Part shown: positions 3,419 through 20,300 of the stretch, one piece after another
How positions within the stretch are numbered: position 1 is the first letter of the stretch
How the letters are laid out: every line of letters begins with the position of its first letter
NCBI RefSeq assembly: GCF_002090175.1
Contig: NZ_BBRN01000006.1
Coordinates: 248,001 to 312,000, forward strand
DNA from: Demequina sp. NBRC 110057
GTDB lineage: Bacteria > Actinomycetota > Actinomycetes > Actinomycetales > Demequinaceae
Direction of reading: 5' to 3'
DNA length: 64,000 nucleotides
Translations under genes and position numbers: made by a program
Notes under the pieces: generated by a model
What the model was told of the DNA's origin: nothing
The model's database searches: none
What the model saw: only the letters and a program-made list of their open reading frames with translations

Positions 3419-6400
3419 CTACTCGCGACCCGGCGCGATCGCCCACGAGGGGACGCTCGGTACAGCGGGAAGCGCAGGGGTGGCGGGGGCGGCGGCCGAT
3501 GCCGTGGCCGGGTTGGCGGCGGGCTCCGCGCCCTCGGCCCGAGGCAAGACCGCTCCCGCGGGCGGCAGCCCAGCCGGGTCGTCGAGCGCGAGCGGCAGCG
3601 GAATCTGCACCCGCGCCACGCGTCCCGAGGCCGCCCACAACCCACGTCCCGGGCCGAACTCCGCGCGCGACACCCGCGGGAAGGCCGTCTTCAGGATCGC
3701 GTCCCCGTCGCCGGTCTCTGGCTGCAGCACCACGCCCCGGCGTGCGAGCTTCACCTCGGACTTGAGGGCACCGAACCCTGACAGGTCCACCACGTCGGAC
3801 TCGACGACCACCAGCAGGTCGCCAGTGCGCGCCCGCTTCAGCATGGTCGTGATGACCTTCTCGGTGGGCGTGTCGGCGAAGTCCGTGACGGCCTCGACGA
3901 AGAGCGCGAGGGGTCGCCCCGACTCGGAGGCGGCGTCGACGAGCGCGCTCAGGTCTCCGAGCGACTCCGCATCGGTACCCGCGAGGTCCCAGCCATCCCA
4001 GCCGGTCACCGCGTCGCGGCGCGCGCCGAGCGCGACCAACACAGCATCGGCCCTCCACTGTCGCACGGCCTGCGCGAGCGAGTACAGCGCCGTGGTCCGT
4101 CCCGACGAGGGGCCGCCGGCGACGATGAGCGCACCGGCGGGATCGAACGGGTGCGGCGCGAGCTCGACGTCGCTCAGCCCGAGCACCGGCTGGCCGTCCA
4201 CCTCGGACGGCATCTCCTCGCGGCGGTACTCGGCGGGGAGGGAACCCACCGGCTCGGCCGCTGGCCGGATGGCGGCCGGCATGCGCGCGGCGTCGCGCGC
4301 GAGCGCCTCGGAGAGCTCGCGCGCGTTGGTCAGCGCGTGCGGGACGGCCACCTGGCACTCGAGCCGGTTGACGATGCCGCGCCCGGCCGGGGACTCGGCA
4401 TCGAGGACGTCGCGCGGGGCGCCCAACGGCGAGTAGCCGTCCTGGTCCGCCAGGCGCATCACGACGCGCTTCTGCACTGTCGCCTGGAGCGAGTTGGAGA
4501 TCGAGGCCGCGCGGTCCGCCGTGAGGACCACGTGCACGCCGACGGCGCGGCCCTCCTGCATGACCGCCTGGAGTGCCGCATACGCCTCGCCGCGACCGGG
4601 CACCCCCTCGTACTCCGCCCGGAACGTGGGGAAGTTATCGAGCAGCATGACGATGCGCGGCTCCTGGGAGCGCGCCTCGAGCTGGCGGTACTCGCTCAGC
4701 GTGGACGCGTTCGCTGCTCCGAAGCGCACGGCCCGCTCCTCCACGGTGGCACGCAGCATGCGCATGAGGCGCATCACCCGCTCCGGATCGTCGCCCGAGA
4801 CCACGGAGCCGACGTGCGGGAGCACCTCGAGCATGCGCAGCGCGGAGCCGCCGGCATCGAGGCCGTAGACGTGTACCGCGCCTTCCGTGACGTGACCCGC
4901 GGCCGTCGCGAGGGTGCGCAGCACCGTCGTCTTTCCCGCGCCGGAGGCGCCGAAGACGATCATGTTCTGGTCGGCCTCAGGCTCGAAGGAGAGCGGCTGC
5001 TGCTGCTGGCGCTGCGGCACGTCGACGACGCCGAAGGGCAGGCGCGCGTCCGATCCCCCGACGATGTCCTCGAGCGCGATCGCGGTGGGAAGCTCGTCGA
5101 GCCACGGTCGCCGCGGCGCCGCGAGCCTCGCTGACCTTGCCCCCGCCACGAAGGTGGAGACGAGGCGCTGCTGATCGGTGGGTCCCACCGCCTGGTCGGT
5201 CCCCGCGGCCGCGCGCGGGCGCTCCCAGGGCGTGAGGCCGCCGAAGCCAAACGACGAGATCTCCGGGTGCAGTTCCCGGTCCTGCGTCGCGGTGCGCCCG
5301 CCGGCGAAGGCCGACTGGAAGCGGGTGAGGCGGCCCGGGCCGGACTTGAGTGCGGCCCGGCCTGGAATCTCCGGGGAGAACTGGGCGGCCTGGACGTCGC
5401 CGATGACGTCGCGGGAGTCGGCCTCGTCGGCCATCCGCAGGGCAACCCTGAGGTTGGTGTTGGCGCGCAGGTTGTCCTTGATGACGCCCGCGGGCCGCTG
5501 GGTCGCCATGATGAGGTGGATGCCGAGCGAGCGTCCACGCTGGGCGATGTCCACGACGCCGTCGACGAAGTCGGGCACCTCGGTCGCGAGCGCCGCAAAC
5601 TCGTCGATGACCAGGATGAGCGCGGGTGGGCACTCGGGGTCGCCCCGCTTCTCCAGCGCGATGATGTCCTTGGCCCGCTTGCGATTGAGCAGTTCCTCGC
5701 GGAAGTGCAGCTCCGCGCGCAGCGACACGAGCGCGCGGCGCACCAGGTGCGGCGAGAGGTCGGTCACGAGGCCCACGCAGTGCGGCAGCTGGGTGCAGTC
5801 GGCGAAGGCCGATCCGCCCTTGTAGTCCACGAAGAGGAACGTGACGCGCTGCGGGCTGTACTCGGCGGCCATGCCCAGCACCCAGGCCTGCAGGAACTCG
5901 GACTTGCCGGAGCCCGTGGTGCCGCCCACGAGCGCGTGGGGGCCCTCGGTGCGCAGGTCGATGTGAAGCGCGCCGGCGGCCGCCTGGCCCACGAGCGCGC
6001 GCAGCCTCGGCTGGTACCCGTGGGGCGCGACCTCGGCGCCGCCGGCGGAAACCAGCGACCCGTTCTGGCGCCAGCGATCCAGGACCGCATCCGCCTCGAG
6101 CGCCAGGTCCGCGCCCACGAGGTCGAGCATCGGCACGGTGCGCGGGATGTCGGATGCGTCCGCTGCCGCCGCGCCGGCATCGGCCGTCCGCGCCAGGGCG
6201 AGGGCGAATCGCGAGAGGTGCGCGGCGCTGAAGCCCTCGACCACCATCGGGGCGACCGTCGCGCCCACCCTCACAAAGTGAGCGGCCGCCATGGCCGCGT
6301 CGTCGAACTCGACGAAGGTGCGGCACGCGGCGGGCAGTGCCGCGCGCGTGCGCGACAGCCACACCGGGTGGATGCCGCGGCCAGCGGCGCGCTCCATCAG

Positions 6401-8044
6401 CTGGATGAGGCGGGCGCGCTCGAGCGGCGCGTCGTCAGCGATGAGCACGAGCACGGCGGGCTGGGGAGCGCGCGAACCCGAGGCGTCGGTGCCGCGCTCG
6501 CCGATTCCCGCACCCACGCGCAGCGCGGCGTCCTCCGCGGCGATGGCGCCGAGCGGCACCGGGGCGTCCTTGCCGCCCGAGCGCACCGCCGCGAGCTCCT
6601 CGAGCCGCGAGACCACGTCGATCGCACCCTGGGGCGAGGCCCCGAGCGGGACGCCGAGCAGGGACTGCGCCGCCTCGGCGTGCGGGAGCCACTTCAGCGC
6701 GGCAAGATCGTCCGCCCAGCCCGCGCCCATGATGCCGGTGATCACCAGCTCGCTCGGGGCATGGAGGCCCGCGAGCTGGGCGACGAGGCCGCGCGCGTAG
6801 GCAGCGGTCACGCCCCTGCCGCCCACGATTCCGAGCGCGCCCGCCTGCGCGAGATCCTCGACGATCGGGACGTCGGGGATCTCGCGGTAGCCGTCCACGA
6901 GCGCGTCGAAGCGCTCCTCGTACTCGGGAAGGGCGCGGTCGCGGCCCTCGGGCTCCTTCACCGTCACGCGCGACGGCGCGGTGCCGACGCCGAGCCGGGC
7001 GAACATGAAGCTCCAGTGCTCGGGACGGCGGGTCCACAGCAGGTCAGTTCCCGCGCTGGCGGAGGTGTTGATGTCCTCGAGCGAGGGCGCCTCGGCGTGA
7101 CGGGCCACGGCCTCCTCGTCCCTGGCAACCCTCAGGCGCTCACGCAGGCGGTCAAGCTGGCGCTCGAAGGTGGCGATGGCCTCCTTCAGCTGGCGCTTGC
7201 GGCGCGAGGCTCCGGTCATGAAGTTGCCCAGCATCATTGCCGGGCTCATGGCGACGAAGATGAGCGACAGCGGCGACCGGGTGACCGAGTACACGACGAG
7301 CCCGACGACGGCGGGCATCGCCACCATCAGCCACGGGAAGGGCTGCTTTTCCTGCGGCACGGGAAGCGCCGCACCCTCGAGTTCGCGCGTGGGAAAGCGC
7401 GCCTCGACACGCGGCGCGCGGGTGTGCACGCGGGTGAGCAGGCTGGGGCTGACGGGCTCGGCGTCCGGGGCGAGCCTGGCGACAAGAGTGGTGGCGCCTA
7501 GCGTCACGCTCGTGCCGTCGGTGATGTCGGCGCGCGGCACGAGCGCGTCGCCAAGCAACACGCCGTTGGCGGAGTTGAGGTCGACGATCTCGACCCTGTC
7601 GGCGGTCGCGTGGATACGGGCGTGGAGCTTGGAAACCATGTCGTCGTCGAGGACCACGTCACACGAGTCGGCACGGCCCACGGTGGACGTGCCCCGGTAC
7701 AGGGTCAGGTGAACTCCCTCGTCCGGGCCAGCGATCACCTGGAGGACGCCGACCGCCACACGCGGTGCATCCCCCTCGGGCACCACGCGCAGCAGCACGC
7801 CGTCGGCGAGGCCGAGGTCGTCGAGGGTGTCGCGCCCGTCGAAGGTCTCGACGGCGTGGCTGCCGTCCGTGGCGCGCACCTCGAGCGTGAGGCCCCCGTC
7901 GTAGGCGCGGCCGCCGTAGTCCCCGCGCGGGTCGTCGCCCACGATCGAGCGCGCCACGTCGTGGACGGTGGCGCCGGGGTCGGCGGAGATGTGAAGGTCC
8001 TCGAGGACGCCCGTGGGGCGCTCGAGGGTGGCACGCAGTCTCAT
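3419..8044 (-). CDS. EssC/EccC-like FtsK/SpoIIIE ATPase with ubiquitin-like and FHA domains
   Basis: This is a 1541-residue membrane ATPase of the type VII secretion motor class. Residues 1-92 look ubiquitin-like (YukD-like), ending LGLADGVLLRVV. Residues about 98-190 form an FHA domain with GRADSCDVVLDDDMVSKLHA and NSANG. Two membrane helices lie at about 237-256 and 258-277. The first ATPase module has Walker A GTTGSGKS (Lys714) and Walker B LILVIDEF (Asp814-Glu815). The second has GASGAGKTT (Lys1038) and MLLDNF. The third has a degenerate P-loop, GGPSSGRTT, around residue 1315. This matches EssC of Firmicutes more than the split EccCa/EccCb. Its likely role is to drive export of helical substrates or another envelope process. 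It is the last gene of the long minus-strand locus, overlapping the FHA-HTH gene by four bases. No EccB, EccD, EccE or MycP is seen in the window. Confidence 0.85.
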   Translation of the reverse strand: MRLRATLERPTGVLEDLHISADPGATVHDVARSIVGDDPRGDYGGRAYDGGLTLEVRATDGSHAVETFDGRDTLDDLGLADGVLLRVVPEGDAPRVAVGVLQVIAGPDEGVHLTLYRGTSTVGRADSCDVVLDDDMVSKLHARIHATADRVEIVDLNSANGVLLGDALVPRADITDGTSVTLGATTLVARLAPDAEPVSPSLLTRVHTRAPRVEARFPTRELEGAALPVPQEKQPFPWLMVAMPAVVGLVVYSVTRSPLSLIFVAMSPAMMLGNFMTGASRRKRQLKEAIATFERQLDRLRERLRVARDEEAVARHAEAPSLEDINTSASAGTDLLWTRRPEHWSFMFARLGVGTAPSRVTVKEPEGRDRALPEYEERFDALVDGYREIPDVPIVEDLAQAGALGIVGGRGVTAAYARGLVAQLAGLHAPSELVITGIMGAGWADDLAALKWLPHAEAAQSLLGVPLGASPQGAIDVVSRLEELAAVRSGGKDAPVPLGAIAAEDAALRVGAGIGERGTDASGSRAPQPAVLVLIADDAPLERARLIQLMERAAGRGIHPVWLSRTRAALPAACRTFVEFDDAAMAAAHFVRVGATVAPMVVEGFSAAHLSRFALALARTADAGAAAADASDIPRTVPMLDLVGADLALEADAVLDRWRQNGSLVSAGGAEVAPHGYQPRLRALVGQAAAGALHIDLRTEGPHALVGGTTGSGKSEFLQAWVLGMAAEYSPQRVTFLFVDYKGGSAFADCTQLPHCVGLVTDLSPHLVRRALVSLRAELHFREELLNRKRAKDIIALEKRGDPECPPALILVIDEFAALATEVPDFVDGVVDIAQRGRSLGIHLIMATQRPAGVIKDNLRANTNLRVALRMADEADSRDVIGDVQAAQFSPEIPGRAALKSGPGRLTRFQSAFAGGRTATQDRELHPEISSFGFGGLTPWERPRAAAGTDQAVGPTDQQRLVSTFVAGARSARLAAPRRPWLDELPTAIALEDIVGGSDARLPFGVVDVPQRQQQQPLSFEPEADQNMIVFGASGAGKTTVLRTLATAAGHVTEGAVHVYGLDAGGSALRMLEVLPHVGSVVSGDDPERVMRLMRMLRATVEERAVRFGAANASTLSEYRQLEARSQEPRIVMLLDNFPTFRAEYEGVPGRGEAYAALQAVMQEGRAVGVHVVLTADRAASISNSLQATVQKRVVMRLADQDGYSPLGAPRDVLDAESPAGRGIVNRLECQVAVPHALTNARELSEALARDAARMPAAIRPAAEPVGSLPAEYRREEMPSEVDGQPVLGLSDVELAPHPFDPAGALIVAGGPSSGRTTALYSLAQAVRQWRADAVLVALGARRDAVTGWDGWDLAGTDAESLGDLSALVDAASESGRPLALFVEAVTDFADTPTEKVITTMLKRARTGDLLVVVESDVVDLSGFGALKSEVKLARRGVVLQPETGDGDAILKTAFPRVSRAEFGPGRGLWAASGRVARVQIPLPLALDDPAGLPPAGAVLPRAEGAEPAANPATASAAAPATPALPAVPSVPSWAIAPGRE

Positions 8045-8775
8045 GGGAGCCTCCCTGGCTGGGTGTCGTCGGCGGGATCGTGAAGGCTGGAGGCATCGAG
8101 CGCGGCGAGGTCGTCGGCGCTCACCAGTCGGGATACGAGCGCGTACTCGACGAGCCTGGCCCGGCGGTTGCTCGCGAGCTGGCCGGGGCCGCCGCGAAGC
8201 CCCTCGACGCCCGCCCTATCGAGTTTCTCGCACACCGCATCGAGCTTGCGATTGAAGGTGGTGAGCGGCCACCCCAACCGAGCCGCGACATCGGCCGATG
8301 CGGGGATGGCCGCCAGGCCTCCCCCGGGTCGCAGGAGGGCCGGCTCGGCGAGCGCGGTGACCAGCAGCCGCTGGCTCTCGGTGAGGCGAAGCGGCTGGCG
8401 TGTCGCGTCGCCGCCCACGTGAGCGCGGGGTACCGAGGGAGTCATGAGCGCCCCCTCGCATTCGAGGCCGAGGTCGTAGGAGCGCGCGCCCGCCGTGAGG
8501 ACCAGCCGCAGGTGCGGCACCACCACGGGCATCGCCGCGCCGGGGCCCAGCTGCGCCTGGAAGTGTCCGTCGTCGGTGCCCACGGTGACGGCGATCGCGC
8601 TTCCCACGTTGCTCAGCCACCACAGGCCGTGCTCCGTGTGAAGCTGGAGAAGGCGACGGTGAAGATGCGGGTTGTCGTCGAGGACGAGGTCTCCCGTGCG
8701 GCCGATGCTGAACACGGTCCCTGCAGCGACGCGCACCGCCGCATCCCCCCACTGCACCGTGACGTCTCCCGGCAT
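8041..8775 (-). CDS. FHA domain protein with C-terminal helix-turn-helix-like region
   Basis: This is a 244-residue protein without membrane segments. The N-terminal half is FHA-like: VFSIGRTGDLVLDDN followed by HLHRRLLQLH and a glycine-serine turn (NVGSAIAVTVG). The domain is divergent, lacking a clear Ser-Xaa-Xaa-His. From about residue 130 comes a region starting LRLTESQRLLVTALAEPAL and containing ADVAARLGWPLTTFNRKLD, which reads as a helix-turn-helix. A phosphopeptide-reading DNA-binding protein is one reading; an adaptor between phosphorylated partners and the ATPase is another. It overlaps the ATPase gene downstream (ATGA) and lies two bases after the repeat-threonine protein gene, so it is probably translated with both. 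Confidence 0.65.
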   Translation of the reverse strand: MPGDVTVQWGDAAVRVAAGTVFSIGRTGDLVLDDNPHLHRRLLQLHTEHGLWWLSNVGSAIAVTVGTDDGHFQAQLGPGAAMPVVVPHLRLVLTAGARSYDLGLECEGALMTPSVPRAHVGGDATRQPLRLTESQRLLVTALAEPALLRPGGGLAAIPASADVAARLGWPLTTFNRKLDAVCEKLDRAGVEGLRGGPGQLASNRRARLVEYALVSRLVSADDLAALDASSLHDPADDTQPGRLP

Positions 8776-8777
8776 GG

Positions 8778-9410
8778 CTACGCGCCCGACTCCAACGCTG
8801 TGACGATCAGCACCACGAGCGCGGTGAGCGCCGCGGCCCCCACCGCCGCCACGACGACGCCCACGATGAGGCGGCGACGACGGCGCTGCGCGTGCCGCGC
8901 GGCGACCTCGGCCGGCGACAGGACGCGCGAGGCGGTGTCGCTGGAGGCGGCCGATGCCTCGGCCGGCCTGGGTGCGCGCACGATGGGCGTGGCGCGGGGA
9001 CCGTAGGTATCCCCCGCCTCGCCGAACGCTCCGGCCGACGTCACCTCGCCGGGCGGAAGCCCGGGGGGAAGGACGGCGCGACGCTTCGCACGGACCGGGG
9101 CGGCCGAGTGCCGCGTCGTCGTGTCGTCGCTCGTGTCCGGCACCTCAGGGGCATGGGCCGCCTGCGGCCGGCGGGAGGCGAGGCGGGTCGCCTCATCCTC
9201 GTGGGCGGCGGCATCGGCCTCGGGAAGCCTGCGGGAGGCGAGGCGGGTCGCCTCATCCTCGTGGGCGGCTGCATCGGCCTGCGGAGCCCTGCGGGAGGCG
9301 AGGCGGGTCGCGTCGTCCTCGGCGGCATCGGGCGTCTGGTCGATGGGGGTGCGCCGTGCGCTGAGTCGCGTCGCGTCGTCCTCCCCCGCTCCCCCCTGGG
9401 CGGCGCTCAT
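8778..9410 (-). CDS. tail-anchored protein with repeated (D/E)ATRLASRR phosphoacceptor-like motif
   Basis: This is a 210-residue protein. Residues 10-80 carry four near-identical motifs, ED(D/E)ATRL(A/S)(S/A)RR, with the threonine at residues 14, 34, 54 and 74, exactly 20 residues apart. A fifth decayed copy (DDTTTRH) lies near residue 97. A linker rich in Pro and Ala follows, then five arginines (HAQRRRRR) and one hydrophobic segment at about 183-205 that ends three residues before the C-terminus, so the repeats should face the cytosol. Threonines preceded by acidic residues are typical targets of PknB-type kinases and FHA ligands. The gene is flanked by FHA genes and a PP2C gene, so it may be a scaffold whose phosphorylation recruits FHA proteins. 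That is inference; no homologous family is recognised. Confidence 0.65.
   Translation of the reverse strand: MSAAQGGAGEDDATRLSARRTPIDQTPDAAEDDATRLASRRAPQADAAAHEDEATRLASRRLPEADAAAHEDEATRLASRRPQAAHAPEVPDTSDDTTTRHSAAPVRAKRRAVLPPGLPPGEVTSAGAFGEAGDTYGPRATPIVRAPRPAEASAASSDTASRVLSPAEVAARHAQRRRRRLIVGVVVAAVGAAALTALVVLIVTALESGA
9171..9390 (-). repeat. 60-bp tandem repeat inside the repeat-threonine gene
   Basis: Units begin at 9171, 9231, 9291 and (diverged) 9351. The first two are almost identical over 60 bases and the third over its first 20; all keep the GCGGGAGGCGAGGCGGGTCG opening or a decayed form of it. The period is a multiple of three, so copy-number change would add or remove 20-residue units without frameshift. 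GCATCGGCC, the motif frequent elsewhere in the window, occurs in units 1 and 2. Confidence 0.9.
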
Positions 9411-10231
9411 TCCTGCGGTTCCCTGCGTGCCGCGACGCCGGTCGTGTCATCCTCGCCGTCGAGGAGCGGCCACAGGGGCCAGGGCCCGGGGTCGGCGTCG
9501 AGCGGCGTCGTGGTGGCGGGCGCGTGGGCGACCACCACCGTGACGTTGTCCCCGGTGCCGTGTCGCAGGGCGGCCTCCACGAGCCGCTCGGCGGCCTCCT
9601 CGTCGGAGTCGGCGAGCCCCGCCACCGAGCCGATGAGCTCGTCAGGGACCGCCCCCGTGAGTCCGTCGCTCGCCACAATAAGCCTGCTACCAGGGGCGAC
9701 GGGAACAAGCCAGGCGTCGAAGGCCGCGACGCCGTCGCCCAGGGCACGTGTGATGATGTTGCGGTCGGGGTGGTGCATCGCCTGCTCGGGGGTGATGCGC
9801 CCGGCGTCGACTAACTGCTGCACGTGCGAGTGGTCCACCGTGATCTGGTGCACGTGCGTGCCCTCGAGCTGGTAGGTCCTGGAGTCGCCCACGTTCACGA
9901 CCATCCACCAGGGCTCGCCCTCGTGCTCGACGGCGACGGCGCCGGTAAGAGTGGTGCCCGACTCCGCACCCGCGCGGCGCCCCACGTCCAGGACGGCTGC
10001 CTGGGCCGCCGCCATGGCATCCGCCACATCGGCCGGCGTGACGACGGTCCGGGAGGACAGCTCGCGGAAGGCCTCGATGGCGGCGGCGCTCGCCGCCGCT
10101 CCGCCCACGTGGCCGCCCATGCCGTCCGCGACGAGGTGGACGGCGCCCGCGGACAGGAAGCTGTCCTCGTTGCGTGCGCGGGGCCCGGTGTCGGTGGCGC
10201 CGGCACCCACGCTCCAGTGCGCGGCCGTCAT
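9407..10231 (-). CDS. PP2C-family Ser/Thr protein phosphatase
   Basis: This is a 274-residue soluble metal-dependent phosphatase. All signature blocks are present in order: RNEDSF, VADGMGGHVGG, GTTLTG, VNVGDSRTYQL, ASDGLTG and GDNVTVVV, including the aspartates that bind two metal ions. There is no membrane segment, unlike the second PP2C at 47584-48915. It overlaps the genes on both sides by four bases (ATGA junctions), placing it between an FHA membrane protein and the repeat-threonine protein. It most likely reverses phosphorylation by the kinase at 23431-24543, acting on the threonine repeats or the FHA proteins. It corresponds to PrpC of the Bifidobacterium PFNA cluster by position. Confidence 0.92.
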   Translation of the reverse strand: MTAAHWSVGAGATDTGPRARNEDSFLSAGAVHLVADGMGGHVGGAAASAAAIEAFRELSSRTVVTPADVADAMAAAQAAVLDVGRRAGAESGTTLTGAVAVEHEGEPWWMVVNVGDSRTYQLEGTHVHQITVDHSHVQQLVDAGRITPEQAMHHPDRNIITRALGDGVAAFDAWLVPVAPGSRLIVASDGLTGAVPDELIGSVAGLADSDEEAAERLVEAALRHGTGDNVTVVVAHAPATTTPLDADPGPWPLWPLLDGEDDTTGVAARREPQE

Positions 10232-12345
10232 GCGTCGTCTCCTCGGACGATGCGGACTTCAAGGTCGCCCAACAGCAGGGTGCCGGTGACCTCGACGGGC
10301 GCGGTCGCGGTCGCCTCGATCTCGGCGCCGTCCGCGGACCTCACGAAGGTGCCGTTGGTGGAGCCCATGTCCGCGACAAACCAGCGATCGCCTCGCGGCT
10401 CCAGGCGCGCGTGCACCTTCGACATGGTGCGGGTGGCGTCAGTGATGCCGACCCGGTCGGGCGCGCCGACGGCCGTCGCGCGGCCGATCACCACGGCGGT
10501 CTCGGGGAGGTCGTACAGGTCGCTTCCAACCGCGAGCCGCCACGCGACCCGACGGCGTGCGGCGATCACCGTGCGGTCGTCGGCGTCGTCGGATTCGGTC
10601 GCGTCCGCCGATGCGGTCGCGACGGCCGATGCCGGGGCCGCGGCGGGCGTAGGGGCCGCCACGGCGGGCGCCGGGCTGGGAGCCTCGGGCTCGGGCTCGG
10701 GCTCGGGAGCGGGAGCGGAGGCCTGTCCGGGAGCGGCGGCGGGCTCGGGTTCCGGGGCCGACGCGGCGGCCGGAGGCAGCGGCGCGACCGTCGGCTCGGC
10801 GGGGCTCGCGGCGGAGCCGGCCGACTGCTGCTGCGCCCGCTCGCGCGCCTCGACAAGCCAGTCGGGCTCCGCTTCCGCGTCCGCCGCAGAAGCCAGGTAC
10901 GGGGACACCGCTGGCTCTCCCGGAATGACGGTGGCGTCGCCGGGAGGCTCCTGCGCGTCGTCTGTTGCTGGCGCGTCCGCCGCGACGTGCTGTTCACGGC
11001 GGGTGAGGTAGGGCGAGAGCGCGATGGTGTCGAGCGGTGCCTCGTCGAGCGGCGCCTTCGGCTCGGGGCGTTCCGGCTCGGGCTCCGACGCGGGCGCGGG
11101 CTCCGGCGCGGGCGCGGGTTCGGCCTCCGGTTCCGGCTCCGGCTCCGGCTCCGGAACCACGGGAATCGCCGCAGTCGCGGCACCGAGCGACGGCGCGGAA
11201 AGGGTCGGCACGTCGTCGGCCGAGGGGGCCGAGAGCGGCCGCAGGTCGGCGGGGGGCGCGGCGGGTGACGGCGCGGCGAAGGGCGACACCCTCACCGGTG
11301 CAAGGTCGTCAGAGGCGCGCGCCGAGGGCTCGCTCGGCGTCACCGCGGCCCACGTGGGGCGAACGGGCACCACGGGAGCCGCATCGTGCGAGCCGGCCGC
11401 GTCGCCGTCGTCGGAGGTCGCCGACCAGCCGGGCGGCAGCGACACCACCGGACGCTCGGGCGCCTCGGGCTCGGACTCTGCGACGGCGGCGGATGCCTCG
11501 GGCATCGCGGCGGGTGCCGCCTCGGACTCGGACTCGGACTCTGCCGGTGCCGCGGGCGCCTGCGGGATCGTTCCCGTCGCCGGGGCGGGGGTGACGGCCG
11601 CCGGCGCCGGCGCCACGGCAGGCTCGTCGGCGACAGCGGCGGCGGGCACCGACTCCACGGGCTCCGGTGCAGCGGTCGGCGCGGAGGGAGGCGTCGGCGC
11701 CGGCACTGCCGACGCATCGGCCTGCCGTGTTGCGGGGGTGGCCCAGCCGTGGGAGTCGCCGGCCTGTGCCTCGGCCCCAAGAGCGAACGAGGACGAGGCG
11801 ACCGCGGTGGAGCGCACGGGGGCGTCGGCATCCGCACGGGCCGCGCGTGCGGCATCGTCCGTCCTGCCGCTCAGGCCGTATGGGCCCCAGCCGAGTATCG
11901 ACGCCCAGATGTGCGGGGAGATCGCGGCGACCCAGCTGAGGGCGGCGGGGGCGCGCAGGCGCAACTCGACGGTGCCTGACCCATAGATCCACAGCACCCA
12001 GCCGACGAGGGTGCCCAGCGCGTTGACGGCGACGCCCGCGACGAGCGCGAGCCGCGCCCACGCTGGGGCGGCGTCGCCCTGGTCCACGATGACGACGAGG
12101 CCCGCGAGCGCGGCGAGGGCGCCTGCGAGGGCGATGCCCCTCGCAAGCCCCACGGCCACACGCGACATGCGTGCGGCCTGGGCGGCGGCGATCCACCTGA
12201 GCACCGGCACGAAGGCCTGGCCGGAGGGCAGGCCCACCTTGCGCAGGACCGCGCCGAGCGCGAGGCCCATCCACACGAGGTCGATGATCACCCCGACCGC
12301 TAAGGGCGCGAAGAGCACCGCTCCCACTCCGTCGATCGCGTTCAT
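10228..12345 (-). CDS. membrane protein with long low-complexity linker and C-terminal FHA domain
   Basis: This is a 705-residue protein. The first 170 residues hold about four membrane helices with VGLPSGQAFVPVLRWIAAAQ between them, a layout similar to DUF5684-like membrane domains. Residues about 180-600 are a low-complexity Ala/Pro/Glu/Ser linker with many EPEPE runs. The last 100 residues are an FHA domain: AVVIGRATAV, then TRTMSKVHARLE and MGSTNGTF, all key residues intact. The FHA end should sit in the cytosol and reach tens of nanometres on its linker to bind a phosphothreonine. It overlaps the transglutaminase-like gene upstream and the PP2C gene downstream, each by four bases. Confidence 0.8.
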   Translation of the reverse strand: MNAIDGVGAVLFAPLAVGVIIDLVWMGLALGAVLRKVGLPSGQAFVPVLRWIAAAQAARMSRVAVGLARGIALAGALAALAGLVVIVDQGDAAPAWARLALVAGVAVNALGTLVGWVLWIYGSGTVELRLRAPAALSWVAAISPHIWASILGWGPYGLSGRTDDAARAARADADAPVRSTAVASSSFALGAEAQAGDSHGWATPATRQADASAVPAPTPPSAPTAAPEPVESVPAAAVADEPAVAPAPAAVTPAPATGTIPQAPAAPAESESESEAAPAAMPEASAAVAESEPEAPERPVVSLPPGWSATSDDGDAAGSHDAAPVVPVRPTWAAVTPSEPSARASDDLAPVRVSPFAAPSPAAPPADLRPLSAPSADDVPTLSAPSLGAATAAIPVVPEPEPEPEPEAEPAPAPEPAPASEPEPERPEPKAPLDEAPLDTIALSPYLTRREQHVAADAPATDDAQEPPGDATVIPGEPAVSPYLASAADAEAEPDWLVEARERAQQQSAGSAASPAEPTVAPLPPAAASAPEPEPAAAPGQASAPAPEPEPEPEAPSPAPAVAAPTPAAAPASAVATASADATESDDADDRTVIAARRRVAWRLAVGSDLYDLPETAVVIGRATAVGAPDRVGITDATRTMSKVHARLEPRGDRWFVADMGSTNGTFVRSADGAEIEATATAPVEVTGTLLLGDLEVRIVRGDDA

Positions 12346-14924
12346 CCGCGCGTGCCATCCTTCCTGCCACGGCGCGAGGCCGTGCGTGAGCGTCCGCCTC
12401 GCCTGGCGGTCGCCCCAGTGTGGTCGCTACGCCAGTGTGTGCGGGATCCCGCGGGCGGCGTGGCGGGCTCCTGACCCGTCGATGAGGTCCCGTGCCACAA
12501 CGAGCGTAGCGACAACCTCATCCTGAGCCGCCTCCACCACCCGCGGGTCGCGAGCCAGTGGTGACGGTCCTCCTCGACCAGGGCCCAGAACCTGTCCGCC
12601 TCGGCGGCGTCGGTCGGCAGATCGGAGAAGGTGGCGCGGTCGGTCATGGTGGCGAGGGCGGCCCCGTGAGGGCTCGCGTAGGCCGCCGCCACCTCCGCGC
12701 GTGTGGCGAGGGGCATCGCGTCGAGGCCCGCGTCCGCGGCGAGGTCGAGGTACTCGTCCCATCCGCCGTGAACGGCCTCGGCCGGAGCGCGGCCGCGGCG
12801 GCGACGTCGCCTCACGAGCTTCCACACCACGACGGCGACGAACGGACCCACGAGGATCAGCAGAGCGAGCAGGCTCAGACCGGCGATCCTCGCGGCGGGG
12901 ATCCACCACGCCTCGGTGGCCGGCTCCTCGATCTCGGGCGGCTCGGAATCGTCCGACGTGCCGCGCTGGGTGGCCGGCGGCACAATCGCCTCCGCGTCCT
13001 CGGGGTCGAGCGGCGACGCAAACTCGGGGTCGCGCTGCGCCGTGATGTCGGGGGACACGGGGTTCTCGTGCTGCGGGGTCACGTCCAACGCGACCCAGGT
13101 ACCGTCGGCCCCCTGGACCTCGGTCCACGCCGTCATGTTGCCGCCGCGGCACTCGCCGGCGTCACACACGGGCGCGACGTCGTCGTCCTCGGACACGAGA
13201 CGCGCGCCGATGACCACCCGCGAGGGATAGCCCAGCGTGGACGCGATGAGGGCGACCGCGGTGGCGAACTGCTCGTCGTCGCCCACCGCGGCGACGAGTT
13301 GCGCGTCGCTGGCCCCCTCGCCCACGTCGGCCGCGCGCTCATTCAGCTCCGTGAAGAGCCGGTCGATCCTGTCGTACGAGTGACCCGCAGCGGCCGAGAC
13401 GAAGGCGTAGCCATTCAGGTCCTGCTCCCAGCGGGCGCTGCCTTCCGCGTCCTCGAGCGCATGGCTCAGGTAGCCGCGAGCGCGCAACCGCTCGACGAGG
13501 GTAACGAGGCCGTCGCCGTCCCGCGACACCTCCTGCTGGGCGACCCAGTCGCGCAGCGAGTCGGGGATCAGCGAGGCGGGCACGGAGCCGGTGCCGGGAG
13601 GCGTGCCGAGGTCGGCGGCGGTGAGGTCGTCGCGGACGTACCCGGTGACCTCGTACGCGTCACCCGTGGCGACGCCCGACTCCAGTGCCATCACCCCGGC
13701 ATCGGCTTGGGGAAGGTAGTAGAAGCTGTCGACCAGCTGGGCTCGGCGTGCGCCGGCGAAGGTGACCTGACCCAGCTCGCCCACGAGCGGTACCGACACT
13801 CCGCCGCCCGAGGCGATCGTGACATCGGCCGTCACCTCGCTCGCTCCGTCGGGGGCGGGAAGCGACGAGGGCACCCGCTGGAACCGTGCGGGCTCCTCCC
13901 CCTCGGGGGCCGAGGCGCTGTACGTGTCGCCGTCGAAGTACGGCAGGGACGCGAGGCGGACCCTGTCGCTCGACCCCGACGTCACGCTCACCGTGAAGAG
14001 CACGTTGTCGTATGCCTCGTCGCCGAAGTATTCGCGGAACGACGCGAGCGGCGTCACCGTCGAGTCGACGGTGACCTGCGGCTCCACGGCCGTGCGCGCG
14101 ACCTCGCGCGGCGTCGCGGCGGCGATGGGCCCCGCCACCAGGATGGCGACGCAGACGGCGGCGAGCAGCATCGCGCCTCCGGCGGCTCCCTCGGCGAGCA
14201 GCCGATGCCCCGGCGCCCTCGCCAGGCGGGCGGCACCCGCGTCGCGGGTCACCGCGATGGCCCTGGCCCGCTGGTAGGCGGACCGCCACAGGAACCACGC
14301 GAGCACGACGAGGAAGAGGGCGAGGCCCACCACAAACTCGCGGCTGAGGAAGGTGCCGAGCGGCGCCCAGGCGAGCGCGTCGGCGCGCGTCGCGGGGCCG
14401 ATCACGATCGCGGCGGTCTCGAGGGCGCCGAGCGTGACCGCGGCAAGGCCCCAGCGCTCGCGCGAGCGCAGGGCCCACCACGCCGCGAGGAGGGTGCCGA
14501 CGAGCAGCAGCGCGAAGACCGGCACGATGGTCGCGCGGTACTCCCCGAGCGGTAGTGGGAGCGTGACGATGTCCTTCCACCCCAGCACGGGGCCGCGCAC
14601 CAGCTCGACCGCGGCGTCGAGGGCGGAGTCGACACCGCTCGTCGCGCCCGGCACCACAAGCGAGAGGCCGCCGACGACGTAGACGGCCGCCGCGAGCGCC
14701 GCCGCGCGGCCGCCTCCCCAGCCCAGCCTGTCGCACAGCACGGCGATCGCGGCCGCCGCGCCGATGGCGAGAGCCGCCGAGGCGACAAAGCGGCTTGACT
14801 CGTATACGGGGTACAGCGTCCACGCGACGACCGTCGCTCCTGCCGCCATGAAGAGCGCGTTGACGAGCGCAAAGGTGAGCGTGGTCGTGGGGCGCACCGA
14901 CGCGCGCCGAATCCGCGCCCTCAC
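12342..14924 (-). CDS. TgpA-like membrane protein with inactive transglutaminase domain
   Basis: This is an 860-residue protein. The start is set at the GTG at 14924, which overlaps the stop of the DUF58 gene (GTGA); a longer upstream reading would lie inside that gene. About six N-terminal helices are followed by an extracellular part, a transglutaminase-like core around residues 470-620, one helix near residue 700 (LSLLALLILVGPFVAVVVW) and a basic cytosolic tail. In active relatives the core reads GxCxQFA and HAWxE. Here it is GDDEQFA (Asp550 at the cysteine site) and MTAWTEV (Thr598 at the histidine site), while Asp614 of LDVTP remains. It should therefore bind or scaffold rather than cross-link. 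The DUF58-MoxR-transglutaminase trio is a common conserved set. Confidence 0.85.
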   Translation of the reverse strand: MRARIRRASVRPTTTLTFALVNALFMAAGATVVAWTLYPVYESSRFVASAALAIGAAAAIAVLCDRLGWGGGRAAALAAAVYVVGGLSLVVPGATSGVDSALDAAVELVRGPVLGWKDIVTLPLPLGEYRATIVPVFALLLVGTLLAAWWALRSRERWGLAAVTLGALETAAIVIGPATRADALAWAPLGTFLSREFVVGLALFLVVLAWFLWRSAYQRARAIAVTRDAGAARLARAPGHRLLAEGAAGGAMLLAAVCVAILVAGPIAAATPREVARTAVEPQVTVDSTVTPLASFREYFGDEAYDNVLFTVSVTSGSSDRVRLASLPYFDGDTYSASAPEGEEPARFQRVPSSLPAPDGASEVTADVTIASGGGVSVPLVGELGQVTFAGARRAQLVDSFYYLPQADAGVMALESGVATGDAYEVTGYVRDDLTAADLGTPPGTGSVPASLIPDSLRDWVAQQEVSRDGDGLVTLVERLRARGYLSHALEDAEGSARWEQDLNGYAFVSAAAGHSYDRIDRLFTELNERAADVGEGASDAQLVAAVGDDEQFATAVALIASTLGYPSRVVIGARLVSEDDDVAPVCDAGECRGGNMTAWTEVQGADGTWVALDVTPQHENPVSPDITAQRDPEFASPLDPEDAEAIVPPATQRGTSDDSEPPEIEEPATEAWWIPAARIAGLSLLALLILVGPFVAVVVWKLVRRRRRRGRAPAEAVHGGWDEYLDLAADAGLDAMPLATRAEVAAAYASPHGAALATMTDRATFSDLPTDAAEADRFWALVEEDRHHWLATRGWWRRLRMRLSLRSLWHGTSSTGQEPATPPAGSRTHWRSDHTGATARRGGRSRTASRRGRKDGTRG

Positions 14925-16312
14925 GTCGCACCCCTGGCCAGCAGCTGGCGAAGGTCGTCGAGGATGCCCAGGCTCAGCAGCCTGGTGCGGCCCACGGCGT
15001 GCACCCCCGGCTCGGAGCGCGGGTCGCACACCACGGCAGCGACGGCAACATCGGCGGGGAAGGCCAGCGCCGCCGACCCGATCTCCGCCAGCGCGGACTG
15101 CGAGCCCGTCACGAGGAAGGCAAGCGAGGTGTCGGAGGTGACCTCGACGAGCATGCGCGTCAGGGTGGGCATCACCACCACGGACGGGGACACCTCCACG
15201 CCCGCGAGGTCGTCGAGAAGGCGCCGCGGCGTCGTCACCGCGAGCTGCTCGAGCGAGCGCACGGTGGTGCGGGCGAACTCGGGCACCTCGCCCGAGACGA
15301 CCACCTGAACGTCGCGGCCGTCACGGATCGCGCGCACTCCCAGTGACCCTGCCGCCGACACCGCCATCTCGAACTCCGCCTCGTCGGCGTAGGAGCGCTC
15401 GTCGAGGTCCAACACGATGGACAGCGTGGACCGTCGCGTCTCCTCGAACTGGCGGACCATGAGGGTGCCGGTCTTCGCCGTCGACTTCCAGTGAATCTGG
15501 CGCTGCGCGTCACCGCGGGCGTACTCGCGCACCGCGTGGAAGGAGATGTCCTCGTTCGTGAGGTGACGCGTGGAGCGCCCCTCAAGGTCGCGCACGAAGC
15601 CCTGCGACGTGCTGGGGACAGCGATGGTCACCGGGTGGATGAACAGCGTCTGGACGTCGGCCCAGTGGAAGGTGCGCTGCAAGAGCCGCATCGGGTCCGA
15701 GCGCACCGTGGTGGCGGGGCCCACGTCGACGATGCCGCGACGGGCGGCGGGGATGACGATGGGCTCGGTGTGGTCCTGGCCGCGTCGCAGCAGCGGCACA
15801 TGAAAGTCGATCAGCCCCTCGCCCACGGGCACGTCCACGCGGCCCGGCAGCGCCACCCTGGCGTGCGGGTTGCGCACCACGATCTCCGCCGCCGCGTCCT
15901 GGCCGGCGACCACCGCATCGTGCAGCAGCCGGAAGTCCACCTCGTATGCCTCGCGCCCCACCAGGAAGGGCACGGCGATGACGAGCAGCACCAGGCCCAC
16001 GGCGGCGCCGATGAGCAGCTCGGCCCATCCCAGCGCGAGCCCCATGACGAGTCCCAGCACCGTCCAGACGATCACCGCCCACCCGGCCGGCGTCGTCACG
16101 GACCTCACCACGGACCATGCCGCCGCCGTGCGCCTCGACACGGCGCGCGAGGTGGCCAGGGCCCACAGCCCCAGGGCGACCCAGCGCCCGTGCCGCTCGT
16201 CGGCGACCTGGGTGTGGGTGCGCGTGGTGGCGCGCGTGTGACTCGTACGGGTGTGCTCCGTCCGAGTGCGGTGGGAGGTGTCGCCGCGGCGACGCCCGGT
16301 GGAGGTGGCCAT
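14921..16312 (-). CDS. DUF58 family protein
   Basis: This is a 463-residue protein. A Thr/Arg/His-rich N-terminus (about 35 residues) precedes two membrane helices around residues 76-115. The DUF58 hallmark follows in the second half: REYARGDAQRQIHWKSTAKT and then GTLMVRQFEE. A von Willebrand A-like fold is known for the family; LSIVLDLDERSY fits its metal-site strand. DUF58 proteins are partners of MoxR AAA ATPases, and here the MoxR gene ends four bases upstream of this gene's coding region. The downstream transglutaminase-like gene overlaps by four bases. The biochemical role of the family is not settled. Confidence 0.88.
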   Translation of the reverse strand: MATSTGRRRGDTSHRTRTEHTRTSHTRATTRTHTQVADERHGRWVALGLWALATSRAVSRRTAAAWSVVRSVTTPAGWAVIVWTVLGLVMGLALGWAELLIGAAVGLVLLVIAVPFLVGREAYEVDFRLLHDAVVAGQDAAAEIVVRNPHARVALPGRVDVPVGEGLIDFHVPLLRRGQDHTEPIVIPAARRGIVDVGPATTVRSDPMRLLQRTFHWADVQTLFIHPVTIAVPSTSQGFVRDLEGRSTRHLTNEDISFHAVREYARGDAQRQIHWKSTAKTGTLMVRQFEETRRSTLSIVLDLDERSYADEAEFEMAVSAAGSLGVRAIRDGRDVQVVVSGEVPEFARTTVRSLEQLAVTTPRRLLDDLAGVEVSPSVVVMPTLTRMLVEVTSDTSLAFLVTGSQSALAEIGSAALAFPADVAVAAVVCDPRSEPGVHAVGRTRLLSLGILDDLRQLLARGAT

Positions 16313-16315
16313 CGG

Positions 16316-17281
16316 CTAGCGCAGGTCCTGCTGGCTCGGCGGCGCGGTGTCGAGGAGGATCTGGCCGATGACGGCGGTCTGGGTCACACCGTCGAACTCC
16401 GCCTCGGGGTCGAGGATGAGGCGGTGGGCGAGGACGGGCTCCGCGAGCGTCTTCACGTCGTCCGGGGTGACGTAGGTGCGGCCGTGGGCGAGCGCCCAGG
16501 CGCGGCAGCCGCGTGCCAGGGCGAGCGCGCCGCGCACGGATACGCCGAGTCGCACCTGGGTGGCCGATCGCGTCGCGTCGACGATACGCGCGATGTAGTC
16601 GAGGATGAGCGGGCTCGTGTGCGCCTCGCGGGCGAGCCCGCTCATGGCCGCGACGGTCTGCAGCTCGGCGATCTGCGGCACCGTCACCTTGGCGGGGCGG
16701 CCCGCGTCGAGGATCTGCAGCGTGGCCCCGTGGTCGGGGTAGCCCAGCGAGGTGCGCATCATGAAGCGGTCGAGCTGCGCCTCGGGAAGCGGGTAGGTGC
16801 CCGCCTGCTCCACGGGGTTCTGGGTCGCCACCACCATGAAGGGCGAGCCGGCCTGGCGGGTGACGCCGTCGACCGTGACGGAGCCCTCCTCCATGACCTC
16901 CAGCAGAGAGGACTGCGTCTTGGGGCTGGCGCGGTTGATCTCGTCGGCGAGCACCACGTTCGCGAACACGGGGCCGGCGTGGAACTCGAAGCTTCCCTTG
17001 GACTGATCGAACACCGTGATGCCCGTAACGTCGCCCGGCAGGAGGTCGGGAGTGAACTGGATGCGGGTGTTGGTGCCCTTGATGGTCTGGGCCAGCGCGC
17101 GCGCCAGCGACGTCTTACCGGTGCCGGGGACGTCCTCGAGGAGCAGGTGACCCTGCGAGACCATCGCCGTGAAGGCCAGCTCGACCACGTGCCGCTTGCC
17201 CAGCACGGCGCGCTCGACGTTGTCGGTGAGCGCCGCGAAGGTGGCGGCGAACCATTCGGCCTGCTCGTCGGTCACGGTCAT
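16316..17281 (-). CDS. MoxR-family AAA+ ATPase
   Basis: This is a 321-residue cytosolic ATPase. The ATG at 17281 is chosen because GAAGGAG lies seven bases upstream; the longer open frame would run into the end of the surface-protein gene. Walker A is VPGTGKTS (Lys56), Walker B is VVLADEINRA (Asp113-Glu114), and sensor 1 is in VVATQNPVEQAGTYPLPEAQ. MoxR ATPases act as chaperones for metal insertion or assembly of VWA-domain partners, here probably the DUF58 protein encoded next. It corresponds to the AAA-ATP gene of the PFNA cluster of Bifidobacterium. Confidence 0.92.
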   Translation of the reverse strand: MTVTDEQAEWFAATFAALTDNVERAVLGKRHVVELAFTAMVSQGHLLLEDVPGTGKTSLARALAQTIKGTNTRIQFTPDLLPGDVTGITVFDQSKGSFEFHAGPVFANVVLADEINRASPKTQSSLLEVMEEGSVTVDGVTRQAGSPFMVVATQNPVEQAGTYPLPEAQLDRFMMRTSLGYPDHGATLQILDAGRPAKVTVPQIAELQTVAAMSGLAREAHTSPLILDYIARIVDATRSATQVRLGVSVRGALALARGCRAWALAHGRTYVTPDDVKTLAEPVLAHRLILDPEAEFDGVTQTAVIGQILLDTAPPSQQDLR

Positions 17282-17339
17282 GCTTGCTCCTTCGGTGGGG
17301 TGGCTGGTCGGGACGGCCGATGCGGCCGCGGGGTCGCGC

Positions 17340-20300
17340 TCACGGGTTCGGCTCGGTGGTGACGTCAGGTTCGGGCGTGGGGGTCGGCGTGGGGGTGGTC
17401 TCGGGCTCTTCAGGCTCCTCGACCAGGCCGCCGCACTGGACCTTGCCGGAACTCCAGGTCTGCATGGCCTGCAAGTTGCCGCTAAACGTGACGGTGACCC
17501 GAGCGCGCTGGATCTGCCAGTCCACGTCAGTGGGGTTTCCCCACCAGTCGAACCACTCGACGTTGGTGGTCGACCAGTCGCCGCCGAGCGCGCGCACCGT
17601 GAGGTCGACGCTGCGGTCCGACACGGTGCACCGCTGGACCTGGACCTCGGTCGCATAGGCGGGCGAGCCCGTTTCCGGCTGAACCGTGGCGCCGCTGTCG
17701 GAGCACACGCGCCCCACCTGGGGAAGGTCCACACAGTTGTAGGCGGTCAGCGTGAAGGGACGTCCCACCGGAAGGTCTCCGGAGTCGAGGTCACGCTCGG
17801 CGACAAGATCACCCCCGTCGATGCGGAAGAACACGGAGAAGCCGCGTGCGTTGTCGACGCTGGGCATGCGCTCGTATTGCGTGTCGCACTGGCTGCCAAG
17901 GCTGGAGGCGTCGCAGCTCGCGTCGACCCGATAGCCGCTGCGCACTGTTGGCGCGCCGGGGTCGACAAACGTGTAGACGTCCTCGACTGCCTGAGACGAG
18001 GTGCCGTAGGAGGTCCCGCCCCAGCGGCTCTCGGCGCACAGGGTGAAGTCCACCGCGGAGTTGGGATCGATACGCGCCTGGAGGCTCACCCTCCCGCCAG
18101 TGGCGGCAGTCGACGGTGAGCAGCGACCGTTGGACGACACCCCGACCCGCGTCTCTGACCCGGCGCCGGCCGAGGCGACATCGGCCGTAAACGTCACGGT
18201 CTGACCGTCGCTGCTGCCCGACCAATCGACGTTGCTGACGCGAGGCCCACCCACGCCATTAGCGGTGATCGTGACGCTCTCGCCCTGGGCGCTCGACTGG
18301 CCCACGGGCGGCAGCTCGTATCGGGTCGCCGGGGTGATCACCACCCGCGTGGGGTCGTTCGAGCCGAGCGCGAGGCCGGGAACGGACACCGACCCCCGGC
18401 CCGAGACGGACACCGTCTTGCTCTCGCCTCCATCGGCCACGACCGTCACCGAGGCGGTGGAGGAGTCGGTGATGGTCATCGACACGTCGGCCTTGCCGCC
18501 GGCGTCGCCCGCCTGCGACGGCACCCAGGTCACGTTGGTGGGCTTGGCTGGCGGGGCGTAGGACCACGCGGTGGTCGACACGGACGAGCGGGACGCACCG
18601 ACCTCGCTCACCGCCACCACCGCGTAGGTGCTCTTGGACCCGTTGGTCACGCCGGTGATCTGCGAGCAGACTCCCTTGGCGGTGCACGTCGCCACGTCCG
18701 CACCGTCACGGGTGACCCGGAATCCGGTGATCGCCGGGTAGGACTTGGCAGCGGCGCCGGGGGTGACCGCGAGGGTGACGGTGCCGTCGCCGTAGGCGGA
18801 CTGCGTGACGGAGGCGGGGGCGCCGGGATATCCCTGCAGGTCGATGCTGACGCGGCCAAGGCGGTCGCCGGAGGACAAGCGTCCCTGGGCGTCGCGCACC
18901 ACGAAGGTCGCGTCGCACGCGGCGCCCGCCGCGTCGGAGGACCACGAGGCACGCACCGTCGTGTCGGACGCCACCTGGAACGTCACTCCCGTGCACGTGC
19001 CGGCGGAGCTGACCGAGACCAGCTCAAGGGGGGTATCAGGAAGGGGGTTGACCTCACCCGAGGCGCCGATGACCGTGACCTCGCACGACGACCCCGCCGC
19101 CTGGGAGCACTGCTTCACGGCGGCGCCTCCCTTGGGAAGGGTCGCCGGCGCCGGGCCCACCTTCAGCGACAGGGTCACGGGGGCGGTGTCGGGGTCGGAC
19201 GTCAGCGCGACCGTCACCGTGTCGACGGCGCCGGGGAGGGACGCGTCCTGCGCGGTGACGGACAGGACGGTGCCCGCACGCTCAACGACGAACTGTTCGC
19301 CCTGGTAGGTCGCCTCGATCTGGACGGCGCGGCCGGCGGAGCCCTGCGGCCACGACACCATGCCCGCGAGGTCGAAGCTGGCCGTCTGACCCGGGGTGAC
19401 CTCGAGGGACGCGCCGGTGAGGATGGGCTGCGGGGCGGCAGGGATGATGACGATGGGCACCGGCAGCAGCGTCGTGTCCTCCTGGCCGGCGACGGTGACG
19501 GGCACCTCGCACGTGTCGGAGTACGGCTCGCCCTCGCCAGCCGAGTACCGCAGCACGGTGCCGGAGACGAGCGTGCACGCCCCCTCGGCCCGGGAGCCCG
19601 AAGTGGTGACGCCGTCGCCATCGATGGTGAACGCCGTTCCCGTCGGCAACGAGAGCAGCGACGCGAGATCGAACTCCACGCTGTCGCCCTCGTCGACCGT
19701 CGGCGGCTCAAAGTTCTCCTTGAGCGCCACCCGAATGTCCTCGTCGCCCGGCACCCGCAGGAAGCCGTACGAGACCACCTCGTCGCCAGCGAAGCTGGTC
19801 CCGCTCACCTCGAAGGGGATGAGCCGCGACTGCTCGGGAAGAGGACCCGCAATGGTCCAGCCGTCGACCGTCAGGTCGTCGGCCTCGCCCCACAGGGACA
19901 GGGTGAGGGCCCCGGCGTCGCCGCCGCCCCAGGCGACCATGTTGGTGAGTACATCGACGCCGGTAGTGAAGGTGTCGCGCGTGTCGGGCGTCAGGACCGT
20001 GTCCGCGACGATGGGAACGCTCGCGATGGGCTCTCGGACCGCTTTGAGGATGATGCGGCCGATGGCCGTCGAGCCCGACTCGTTGGCGACGGTGTAGGTA
20101 TAGGCGAGCGTGCCGGGCTCGGTGCCGACCTCGAGGGTGACGCGGCCCTCGTCCGACTCGACGATGTGGCCCGCGAGCGCGCGGTACTCGTCCGAGTCGG
20201 GGTCGGCGTCCGGCACCACCTGCTGCAGCGTGAGTTCCCCGCCGCCGAGGTCGAGGTCGTTCGCGGTGGGGGTGATGATGACCCGTCGGTCCTCGCCCAC

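Follow-up and report, generated by a model that had tools for sequence, protein, structure and literature searches.

A predicted tail-anchored protein of Demequina carries repeats of a threonine motif shared with the neighbouring FHA and PP2C proteins and is a candidate multivalent docking substrate

Kinase, PP2C and FHA genes cluster in actinobacterial operons, and the ligands of the FHA domains are often unknown. In Demequina sp. NBRC 110057 a 210-residue protein, predicted to be held in the membrane by its C-terminus, carries four copies of a threonine motif that recurs in the linker of the operon's FHA protein and at the C-terminus of its PP2C phosphatase. We consider it probable, judging from sequence, that this protein, here called the array protein, is a membrane-tethered multivalent substrate that is written by the operon kinase, erased by PP2C and read by an FHA domain, and that it gathers the FHA protein at the membrane. 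A conserved, Thr-specific motif in array, FHA linker and PP2C tail provides a concrete test peptide and a sequence route to the partners of the system. The initial annotation of this DNA appears mostly right in what it observed and its main inference is supported by sequence comparison, and the system seems wider than it saw.

The operon and its neighbours

The window, that is, the whole stretch of DNA analysed, comprises 64,000 nucleotides of an assembly of 2.73 Mb, and a window position is the contig position minus 248000. The genes of interest lie on the minus strand in the order kinase, Big_9 Ig-like protein, MoxR-type ATPase, DUF58, transglutaminase-like protein (TGM), FHA, PP2C, array, FHA-like gene and FtsK/EssC-like FHA gene:

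23431..24609, minus strand: Hanks-type Ser/Thr kinase with HRDIKPSN, DFG and a C-terminal hydrophobic segment (Pfam Pkinase, sequence)
17340..23441, minus strand: large protein of Ig-like (Big_9) repeats, at the position of fn3 (Pfam Big_9, 5 stretches)
16316..17734, minus strand: MoxR-type AAA ATPase (Pfam AAA_3)
14921..16312, minus strand: DUF58 protein, the anchor for locating the operon elsewhere (Pfam)
12342..15029, minus strand: transglutaminase-like protein, TGM (Pfam Transglut_core)
10228..12345, minus strand: FHA protein, 705 aa (Pfam FHA at 618-669)
9407..10231, minus strand: PP2C phosphatase, 274 aa, tail EDDTTGVAARR, overlapping the array gene by 4 bases (Pfam PP2C)
8778..9410, minus strand: predicted tail-anchored array protein, 210 aa (ORF, motif search, AlphaFold2, homologues)
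9169..9380, minus strand: DNA from the last to the first motif copy (pattern search and translation)
8041..8775, minus strand: accessory gene with an FHA-like N-terminus and a conserved C-terminal domain (alignment of 9 sequences)
3419..8044, minus strand: accessory FtsK/EssC-like ATPase with an N-terminal FHA domain (Pfam FtsK_SpoIIIE, FHA)

The listing of open reading frames gives the array gene the extent, strand and length first assigned to it, and Pfam confirmed the FHA, PP2C and kinase genes that had been placed around it; the kinase frame, read from its first start codon, spans 23431-24609, where 23431-24543 had been given. From the TGM gene on, neighbours overlap by 4 bases, and the FHA-like gene instead starts just past the array stop codon. 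In all 12 Demequina loci compared, matches follow the order MoxR, DUF58, TGM, FHA, PP2C, array, although the reading frames of FHA and PP2C appear to be broken at one locus, L017. The two genes downstream are more sporadic, the EssC-like gene being found in 2/12 and the FHA-like gene in 3/12 of these stretches.

The cluster resembles the PFNA cluster of Bifidobacterium, outlined as pkb2, fn3, aaa-atp, duf58, tgm, prpC, a hypothetical seventh gene and fha (PMC8430577), in that genes for a kinase, a large repeat protein, an AAA ATPase, DUF58, transglutaminase, PP2C and FHA proteins run in one direction, with the kinase, ATPase, DUF58 and TGM genes also in the same order. It differs in the second gene, which here matches Big_9 and has no FN3 match in Pfam, and in that the FHA gene precedes PP2C, whereas the Bifidobacterium order is prpC, seventh gene, fha. 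If our reading of the array is true, it may explain the unknown gene of PFNA-type clusters.

The product of 8041-8775 has no Pfam match. In an alignment of nine sequences its N-terminus keeps the GR of FHA domains, the Ser and Asn of the phosphothreonine (pThr) pocket are not seen, and the C-terminal domain is highly conserved (LTTFNRKLD..C.KLD); by our own reading the N-terminus would be a degenerate FHA-like domain. The product of 3419-8044 scores 515 bits against the NCBIfam EssC model (cut-off 778) and 324 against EccCa (cut-off 509), and so falls below the equivalog cut-offs for a type VII secretion EssC/EccC. EssC-like matches follow the array in several Microbacterium loci, and PFNA-type and type VII-like genes may therefore be linked. 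On the opposite strand, at 127-423 of the window, a 98-aa protein bears a weak resemblance to EspC, a family of type VII substrates (E 0.032, below the cut-off).

The threonine motif and its conservation

A motif scan found four copies of [DE]D[DE]ATRL[AS]xRR in the array protein. The repeats that the initial annotation had described therefore exist, but their threonines are T14, T35, T55 and T75 and not 14, 34, 54 and 74, and the gaps are 21, 20 and 20 where an exact spacing of 20 residues had been claimed. A search of the genome with the DNA form of the motif places the copies of the array gene at C6:257169, 257229, 257289 and 257352-257380. Shuffled versions of the protein, less its last 40 residues, contain a mean of 0.01 copies against the four observed; chance or low complexity as the source of the repeats is ruled out by the shuffles together with the conservation described below.

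In an AlphaFold2 model built from 16 aligned sequences, residues 1-160 have low confidence (means of 10-residue blocks 41-69) and are probably disordered, and there is a single C-terminal helix at 166-209. The protein is thus predicted to be tail-anchored, with this lone transmembrane (TM) helix and none elsewhere, and hydropathy screens support a C-terminal anchor in the homologues. By the positive-inside rule an Arg-rich sequence marks the cytosolic side of a membrane helix; such a sequence precedes the helix here, which fits a cytosolic repeat region. Pfam searches of the array protein returned no family, and an NCBIfam match to SepX/GlpR (E 0.0076, 16 bits against a cut-off of 160) was rejected as compositional.

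Homologues of the array were drawn from named loci anchored on DUF58 (80 kept of 358) and from genomes of the family, where BLAST found an array in 13/47, our own included; loci carry L numbers. A screen by operon position and C-terminal hydrophobic segment gave 50 proteins, of which those of L069 and L120 were removed because PP2C had been picked in error there. The motif played no part in choosing the remaining 48, and yet 43 of them bear it, 32 in two or more copies. With the window's own protein and nine that were partly picked by motif (L018, L020, L022, L056, L060, L069, L079, L081 and L120) the set comprises 58 array proteins from Demequina and from Microbacteriaceae (Microbacterium, Cryobacterium, Homoserinimonas, Gryllotalpicola and others). 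The pattern [DE][DE].T.[VILM]..[RK] occurs 161 times in 52 array proteins, where shuffles give an expectation of 0.48, and 47 of the 52 have at least one copy.

When the central residue of the motif was left open, 183 of 197 sites in the 58 proteins had Thr and two had Ser, against a background composition of 8.8% Thr and 7.2% Ser; nine N-termini were trimmed by hand before this count. The bias is the same for the RR form of the motif (Thr 107/115, Ser 2) and for the 48 proteins that were not motif-picked (Thr 147/160, Ser 2). Among 248 [DE][DE]xT sites, 77% have L, I, V or M at position +2 and 87% have Arg at +5; all of these are raw counts that ignore shared ancestry. Kinases often accept Ser as well as Thr. 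Among the sequence arguments for an FHA reader, the near-exclusive use of Thr over Ser weighs most, FHA domains being credited with 'acute pThr specificity' (PMC11884936).

An order-wide search with a profile of the array alignment matched 23/396 genomes and 3/109 genera, figures that are under-sensitive because the search misses G005, where BLAST finds an array, and the genomes of L188, L190 and L191, where arrays were read directly. Among seven further stretches an array is present in L187 (which looks like the same genome as L075), L188, L190 and L191, and none was seen in L186, L189 or L192. The array of L188, at about 13740-14400, consists of five DEDERTVIVDRGD-like units of 13 residues, which come close to EATVVVDRR, the site in the FHA protein of that locus.

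A strong FHA module is present in 59 named loci; 44 of these have their array in the set and a looser look adds four (L050, L058, L062 and L064). Two more end within 400 bases of the FHA gene, three (L108, L112 and L118) have a tail-anchored ORF with a single motif-like copy, and in six (L063, L080, L105, L111, L115 and L122) no screen found an array. A different type of cluster is seen in six loci from Salinibacterium, Frigoribacterium, Leifsonia, a Cryobacterium and a Microbacteriaceae bin (L117, L123, L124, L126, L127 and L128), where likewise no array was found; L126 ends at the FHA gene. In four of these (L117, of zinc-ribbon type by Pfam, L123, L124 and L127) the FHA protein downstream of TGM nevertheless has an EETRIVQR-like site ahead of its FHA domain, and in L126 and L128 no motif-like site was found before the domain. 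Since four of six array-less FHA proteins keep such a site, the motif in cis does not need the array, and by this sequence comparison it may be older.

The motif beyond the array

The motif had been noticed in the array protein; it is indeed present there, but it is not private to it. The FHA protein 10228-12345 consists of hydrophobic N-terminal segments, a long Pro/Ala/Glu-rich linker, the sequence DDRTVIAARRR and a C-terminal FHA domain. All 54 FHA entries that could be scored, among them at least one genome in duplicate (L037 is identical to L063), have a relaxed motif no more than 60 residues ahead of the FHA pocket. Seven entries went unscored, the pocket pattern having failed or the protein being cut, and in five of these the motif is visible by eye. 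When 36 of the 47 available FHA modules are aligned, neither the linker Thr nor GR, SK.H and NG in the pocket vary; GR and SK.H had served to select the modules, so that only the Thr and NG count as independent observations. GR, SKVHA and STNG are present in the FHA domain of the window, and five FHA proteins outside this selection show GR, S..H and STNG by eye. At the C-terminus of PP2C the strict motif is found in 10/13 Demequina tails (eight by script, those of L017 and L022 by reading). The search of the genome with the DNA form of the motif gave 15 matches, six of them in the array, PP2C and FHA genes, where a reversed control gave five.

Fusions tie the repeats to both writer and eraser. 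In Microbacterium pullorum (L113) a kinase domain (Pfam 137 bits, HRDIKPGN) and a C-terminal TM segment flank the copies, one of them strict and several looser, within one protein. In Microbacterium thalli (L097) six copies and a TM segment follow a kinase-like domain in which HGR and GFD replace HRD and DFG, and in a Demequina (L035) PP2C is joined to four copies and a TM segment. Each of the three is one open frame.

The motif or parts of it were also seen in other proteins. In Microbacterium a second FHA protein upstream of the kinase (L079 774-1811, L097 549-1619 and L101 520-1719) has EDETILGSRR or a similar sequence right ahead of its FHA domain, and the kinases of L079, L097, L100 and other Microbacterium loci have DEGTVLAG or DEGTILAG, resembling half the motif, ahead of their C-terminal hydrophobic segment. 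Elsewhere in our own genome (C3:75187-76131; L029 5188-6135) a 315-aa protein with one hydrophobic segment has EDDTIILSRR in an acidic tail. From its sequence it is a possible further client; of 30 loci read, four keep the motif, its own among them, and these four belong to the eight closest; the ORFs picked in distant loci were often wrong.

The FHA module was modelled with AlphaFold2 at a mean pLDDT of 84, with blocks of 53-75 in the motif region, and the linker motif was not placed confidently in the module's own pocket. The best Foldseek matches were FhaA (Rv0020c), ArnA, CEP170, CT664, GarA and OdhI, whose TM-scores of about 0.5 to 0.7 are modest, the model having a loose tail, and a profile search gave 20 distinct PDB sequences, including OdhI, GarA and DgcB. 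These last three are described as binding their own Thr tails (PMC6733907), which makes self-binding the likely role of the linker motif, and competition or bridging that of the array as a ligand. The conserved Thr adjoining the FHA domain, a feature of the GarA/OdhI type, is present in 36/36 modules; the ETTS motif is absent from the linker, which reads DDRTVIAARRR in the window and has related forms elsewhere.

In raw counts repeats and linker also co-vary, although the two tests disagree. Both parts were available in 69 loci; for L032 and L098 the linker sequence was taken by eye. Where the linker has V at +3, the repeats tend to have V, I or L there (mean fraction 0.79; 20 genomes), and where it has A, S or T the repeats have small residues (0.09; 39 genomes); the raw counts are 47:13 motifs in the 20 V-class genomes and 10:164 in the 39 A/S-class genomes. 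Independent contrasts for the +3 class on a DUF58 tree, using 59 loci after removal of nine duplicates and L118, gave no correlation (r 0.09, P 0.51), and of five inferred linker changes the single-tip ones (L031, L072 and L095, the order of tips being read by us) are unmatched in the repeats. A permutation within three groups, a partial control for ancestry, covered 53 genomes, including three added later; ten linkers went unused because the set contained no array for them (L028, L031, L039, L041, L043, L050, L058, L108, L112 and L118). It found that repeats agree with their own linker at 1.42 of 4 residues and with other linkers at 1.09 (P 0.0002). The signal is found in Demequina (P 0.0004) and in the mixed rest (P 0.0002) and not in Cryobacterium (P 0.90). 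For position +3 alone it persists (P 0.0018 in Demequina, 0.0056 in the rest group), while +1 and +2 fail in Demequina (0.41 each) and +4 fails in the rest group (0.29). Because contrasts and permutation disagree, we count the co-variation as a hint only.

A more ambitious reading, which we offer tentatively and hold somewhat less probable than its opposite, is that one pThr code, D-D-x-T-(V/R)-(L/I/V)-x-x-R-R, is common to reader, eraser and multi-copy membrane scaffold. The kinase would assemble them into a reversible network whose valency is tuned from species to species by gain and loss of repeats, and the code would drift in step in reader and scaffold.

A candidate pThr scaffold and competing readings

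From the motif, its preference for Thr, the synteny, the fusions and the FHA pocket we infer a course of events in which the operon kinase, which ends in a hydrophobic segment, would phosphorylate the Thr of each D-D-x-T-(V/R)-(L/I/V)-x-x-R-R copy and so write several pThr residues on the array. The FHA domain of 10228-12345 would bind these residues, and with several copies per chain the FHA protein, perhaps together with the motif-tailed PP2C, would collect in a patch next to the kinase; dephosphorylation by PP2C would undo this. Since the same motif adjoins its own FHA domain, the FHA protein probably binds itself, in cis or between molecules. The array may then compete with this self-bound state, its copy number setting a threshold for recruitment, and a dedicated multi-site strand could set both that threshold and the local concentration. 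Proteins of the MoxR, DUF58, transglutaminase-like and Ig-like families point, from what is known of them, to the cell envelope. With these neighbours, the downstream process is probably envelope assembly or surface display.

The initial annotation held that acidic residues before the Thr suit PknB-like kinases. In M. tuberculosis the Thr sites lost on depletion of PknA are acidic at -1 and at -3 to -6, hydrophobic at +3 and basic at +4, and among the sites for PknB depletion no position is significant (PMC7164672). The acidic -3 of the array motif agrees with the PknA sites, but its hydrophobic and basic residues are at +2 and +5 where those sites have them at +3 and +4; the kinase argument holds only in part.

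Several known systems share parts of the proposed arrangement. In the disordered N-terminus of PknG autophosphorylated Thr sites recruit GarA through its FHA domain (PMC8546545); the likeness lies in a disordered multi-Thr stretch that recruits an FHA protein bearing its own phosphorylated Thr beside the domain, which here is predicted. In the PknG system, however, the sites are within the kinase and OdhI and GarA use ETTS, whereas here they are on a separate tail-anchored protein and read D-D-x-T-x-L-x-x-R-R. Human MDC1 has phosphorylated TQXF repeats that are read by the FHA domain of RNF8 (PMC11884936) and is likewise a scaffold with several copies of one Thr motif, phosphorylation being a prediction in our case. 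MDC1 is a eukaryotic DNA-damage protein with another kinase and another motif, and we claim no homology. The features of such a scaffold that are present here are a repeated Thr motif in a region of low model confidence, Thr as the acceptor and a partner FHA domain with pThr-binding residues. The M. tuberculosis ABC transporter Rv1747, with PknF and PstP, forms phospho-dependent condensates that the phosphatase reverses (reviewed in PMC9312465); it too is a membrane FHA protein with a disordered linker, but it has FHA domains and linker in one protein where the array is a separate one. In DgcB of Bdellovibrio an FHA domain goes with a Thr peptide from the same protein that has an acidic residue at -2 and a hydrophobic one at +2 (PMC6733907); DgcB differs in being a diguanylate cyclase with a single site and a peptide that is hydrophobic at -3, where the array motif is acidic. 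A literature search of titles and the beginnings of abstracts, with partial coverage, found no bacterial tail-anchored multi-Thr partner of an FHA protein and no report of the array motif. If true, the reading would place the array alongside MDC1-type repeat scaffolds as their equivalent in bacteria, and its valency would evolve as repeats are gained and lost.

Multi-site acidic Thr stretches, and the fusion of the repeats to a kinase (L113) and to PP2C (L035), would also suit a buffer, in which the repeats soak up kinase and phosphatase activity and make the response switch-like with no FHA reader at all. Such a buffer would require neither the near-absence of Ser (2/197) nor the likeness of the repeats to the FHA linker, and we regard it as unlikely.

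With an FHA reader preferred, there remains the choice of the FHA protein. Docking sites had been proposed for both 3419-8044 and 10228-12345. Conservation, the Thr bias, the motif beside the FHA domain and the fusions support docking as such, and 10228-12345 is the likelier reader because it stands beside the array in 12/12 Demequina loci where 3419-8044 was seen in 2/12. That the array instead docks the EssC-like protein, recruiting a type VII-like secretion ATPase, is quite unlikely on this count and because the motif sits in the FHA protein's own linker. It is favoured by the FHA domain of the EssC-like protein, by the matching gene that follows the array in several Microbacterium loci and by Bacillus YukB, whose N-terminal FHA region interacts with the pseudokinase YukC (PMC9600267).

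The strong acidic-then-basic pattern, with its Arg at +5 in 87% of the 248 sites, could also bind a partner or the membrane electrostatically and unphosphorylated, with the Thr incidental. This is very unlikely given that Thr fills 183/197 sites with the centre left open and is invariant in 36 FHA linkers.

Returning to docking of the operon FHA protein, the regular spacing of the copies adds little to the case. At the DNA level repeat units 3 and 4 are 90% identical and the remaining pairs 50-68%, which suggests that one copy is young and the others have diverged around a retained motif. A recent tandem duplication that added nothing to the function of one ancestral copy is compatible with the first figure, but is largely excluded by the motif being kept in the diverged pairs and by the retention of copies in Demequina and Microbacteriaceae. 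The even spacing is nonetheless partly an effect of duplication, units 3 and 4 being so alike. Among 32 array proteins with at least three copies, four are evenly spaced to within 1 residue, namely the window's own and those of L035 (20), L098 (17) and L104 (19), and the median of 130 gaps is 20, with quartiles of 16-25. A conserved 20-residue ruler was therefore rejected, only 4/32 arrays being even and their periods differing (17, 19 or 20). A scaffold had been proposed as the explanation of the regular spacing; with a spacing that is not conserved across relatives and is partly due to duplication, none is needed for it. Comparison among relatives, which had been suggested as a check, thus shows the motif to be conserved, but with uneven spacing and a very variable copy number: of the 58 array proteins five have no copy, 13 have one and 40 have at least two, with a maximum of nine. 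In the Cryobacterium array protein of L119 (16399-17118) a long Pro-Asp-Glu repeat run lies ahead of the Thr motifs.
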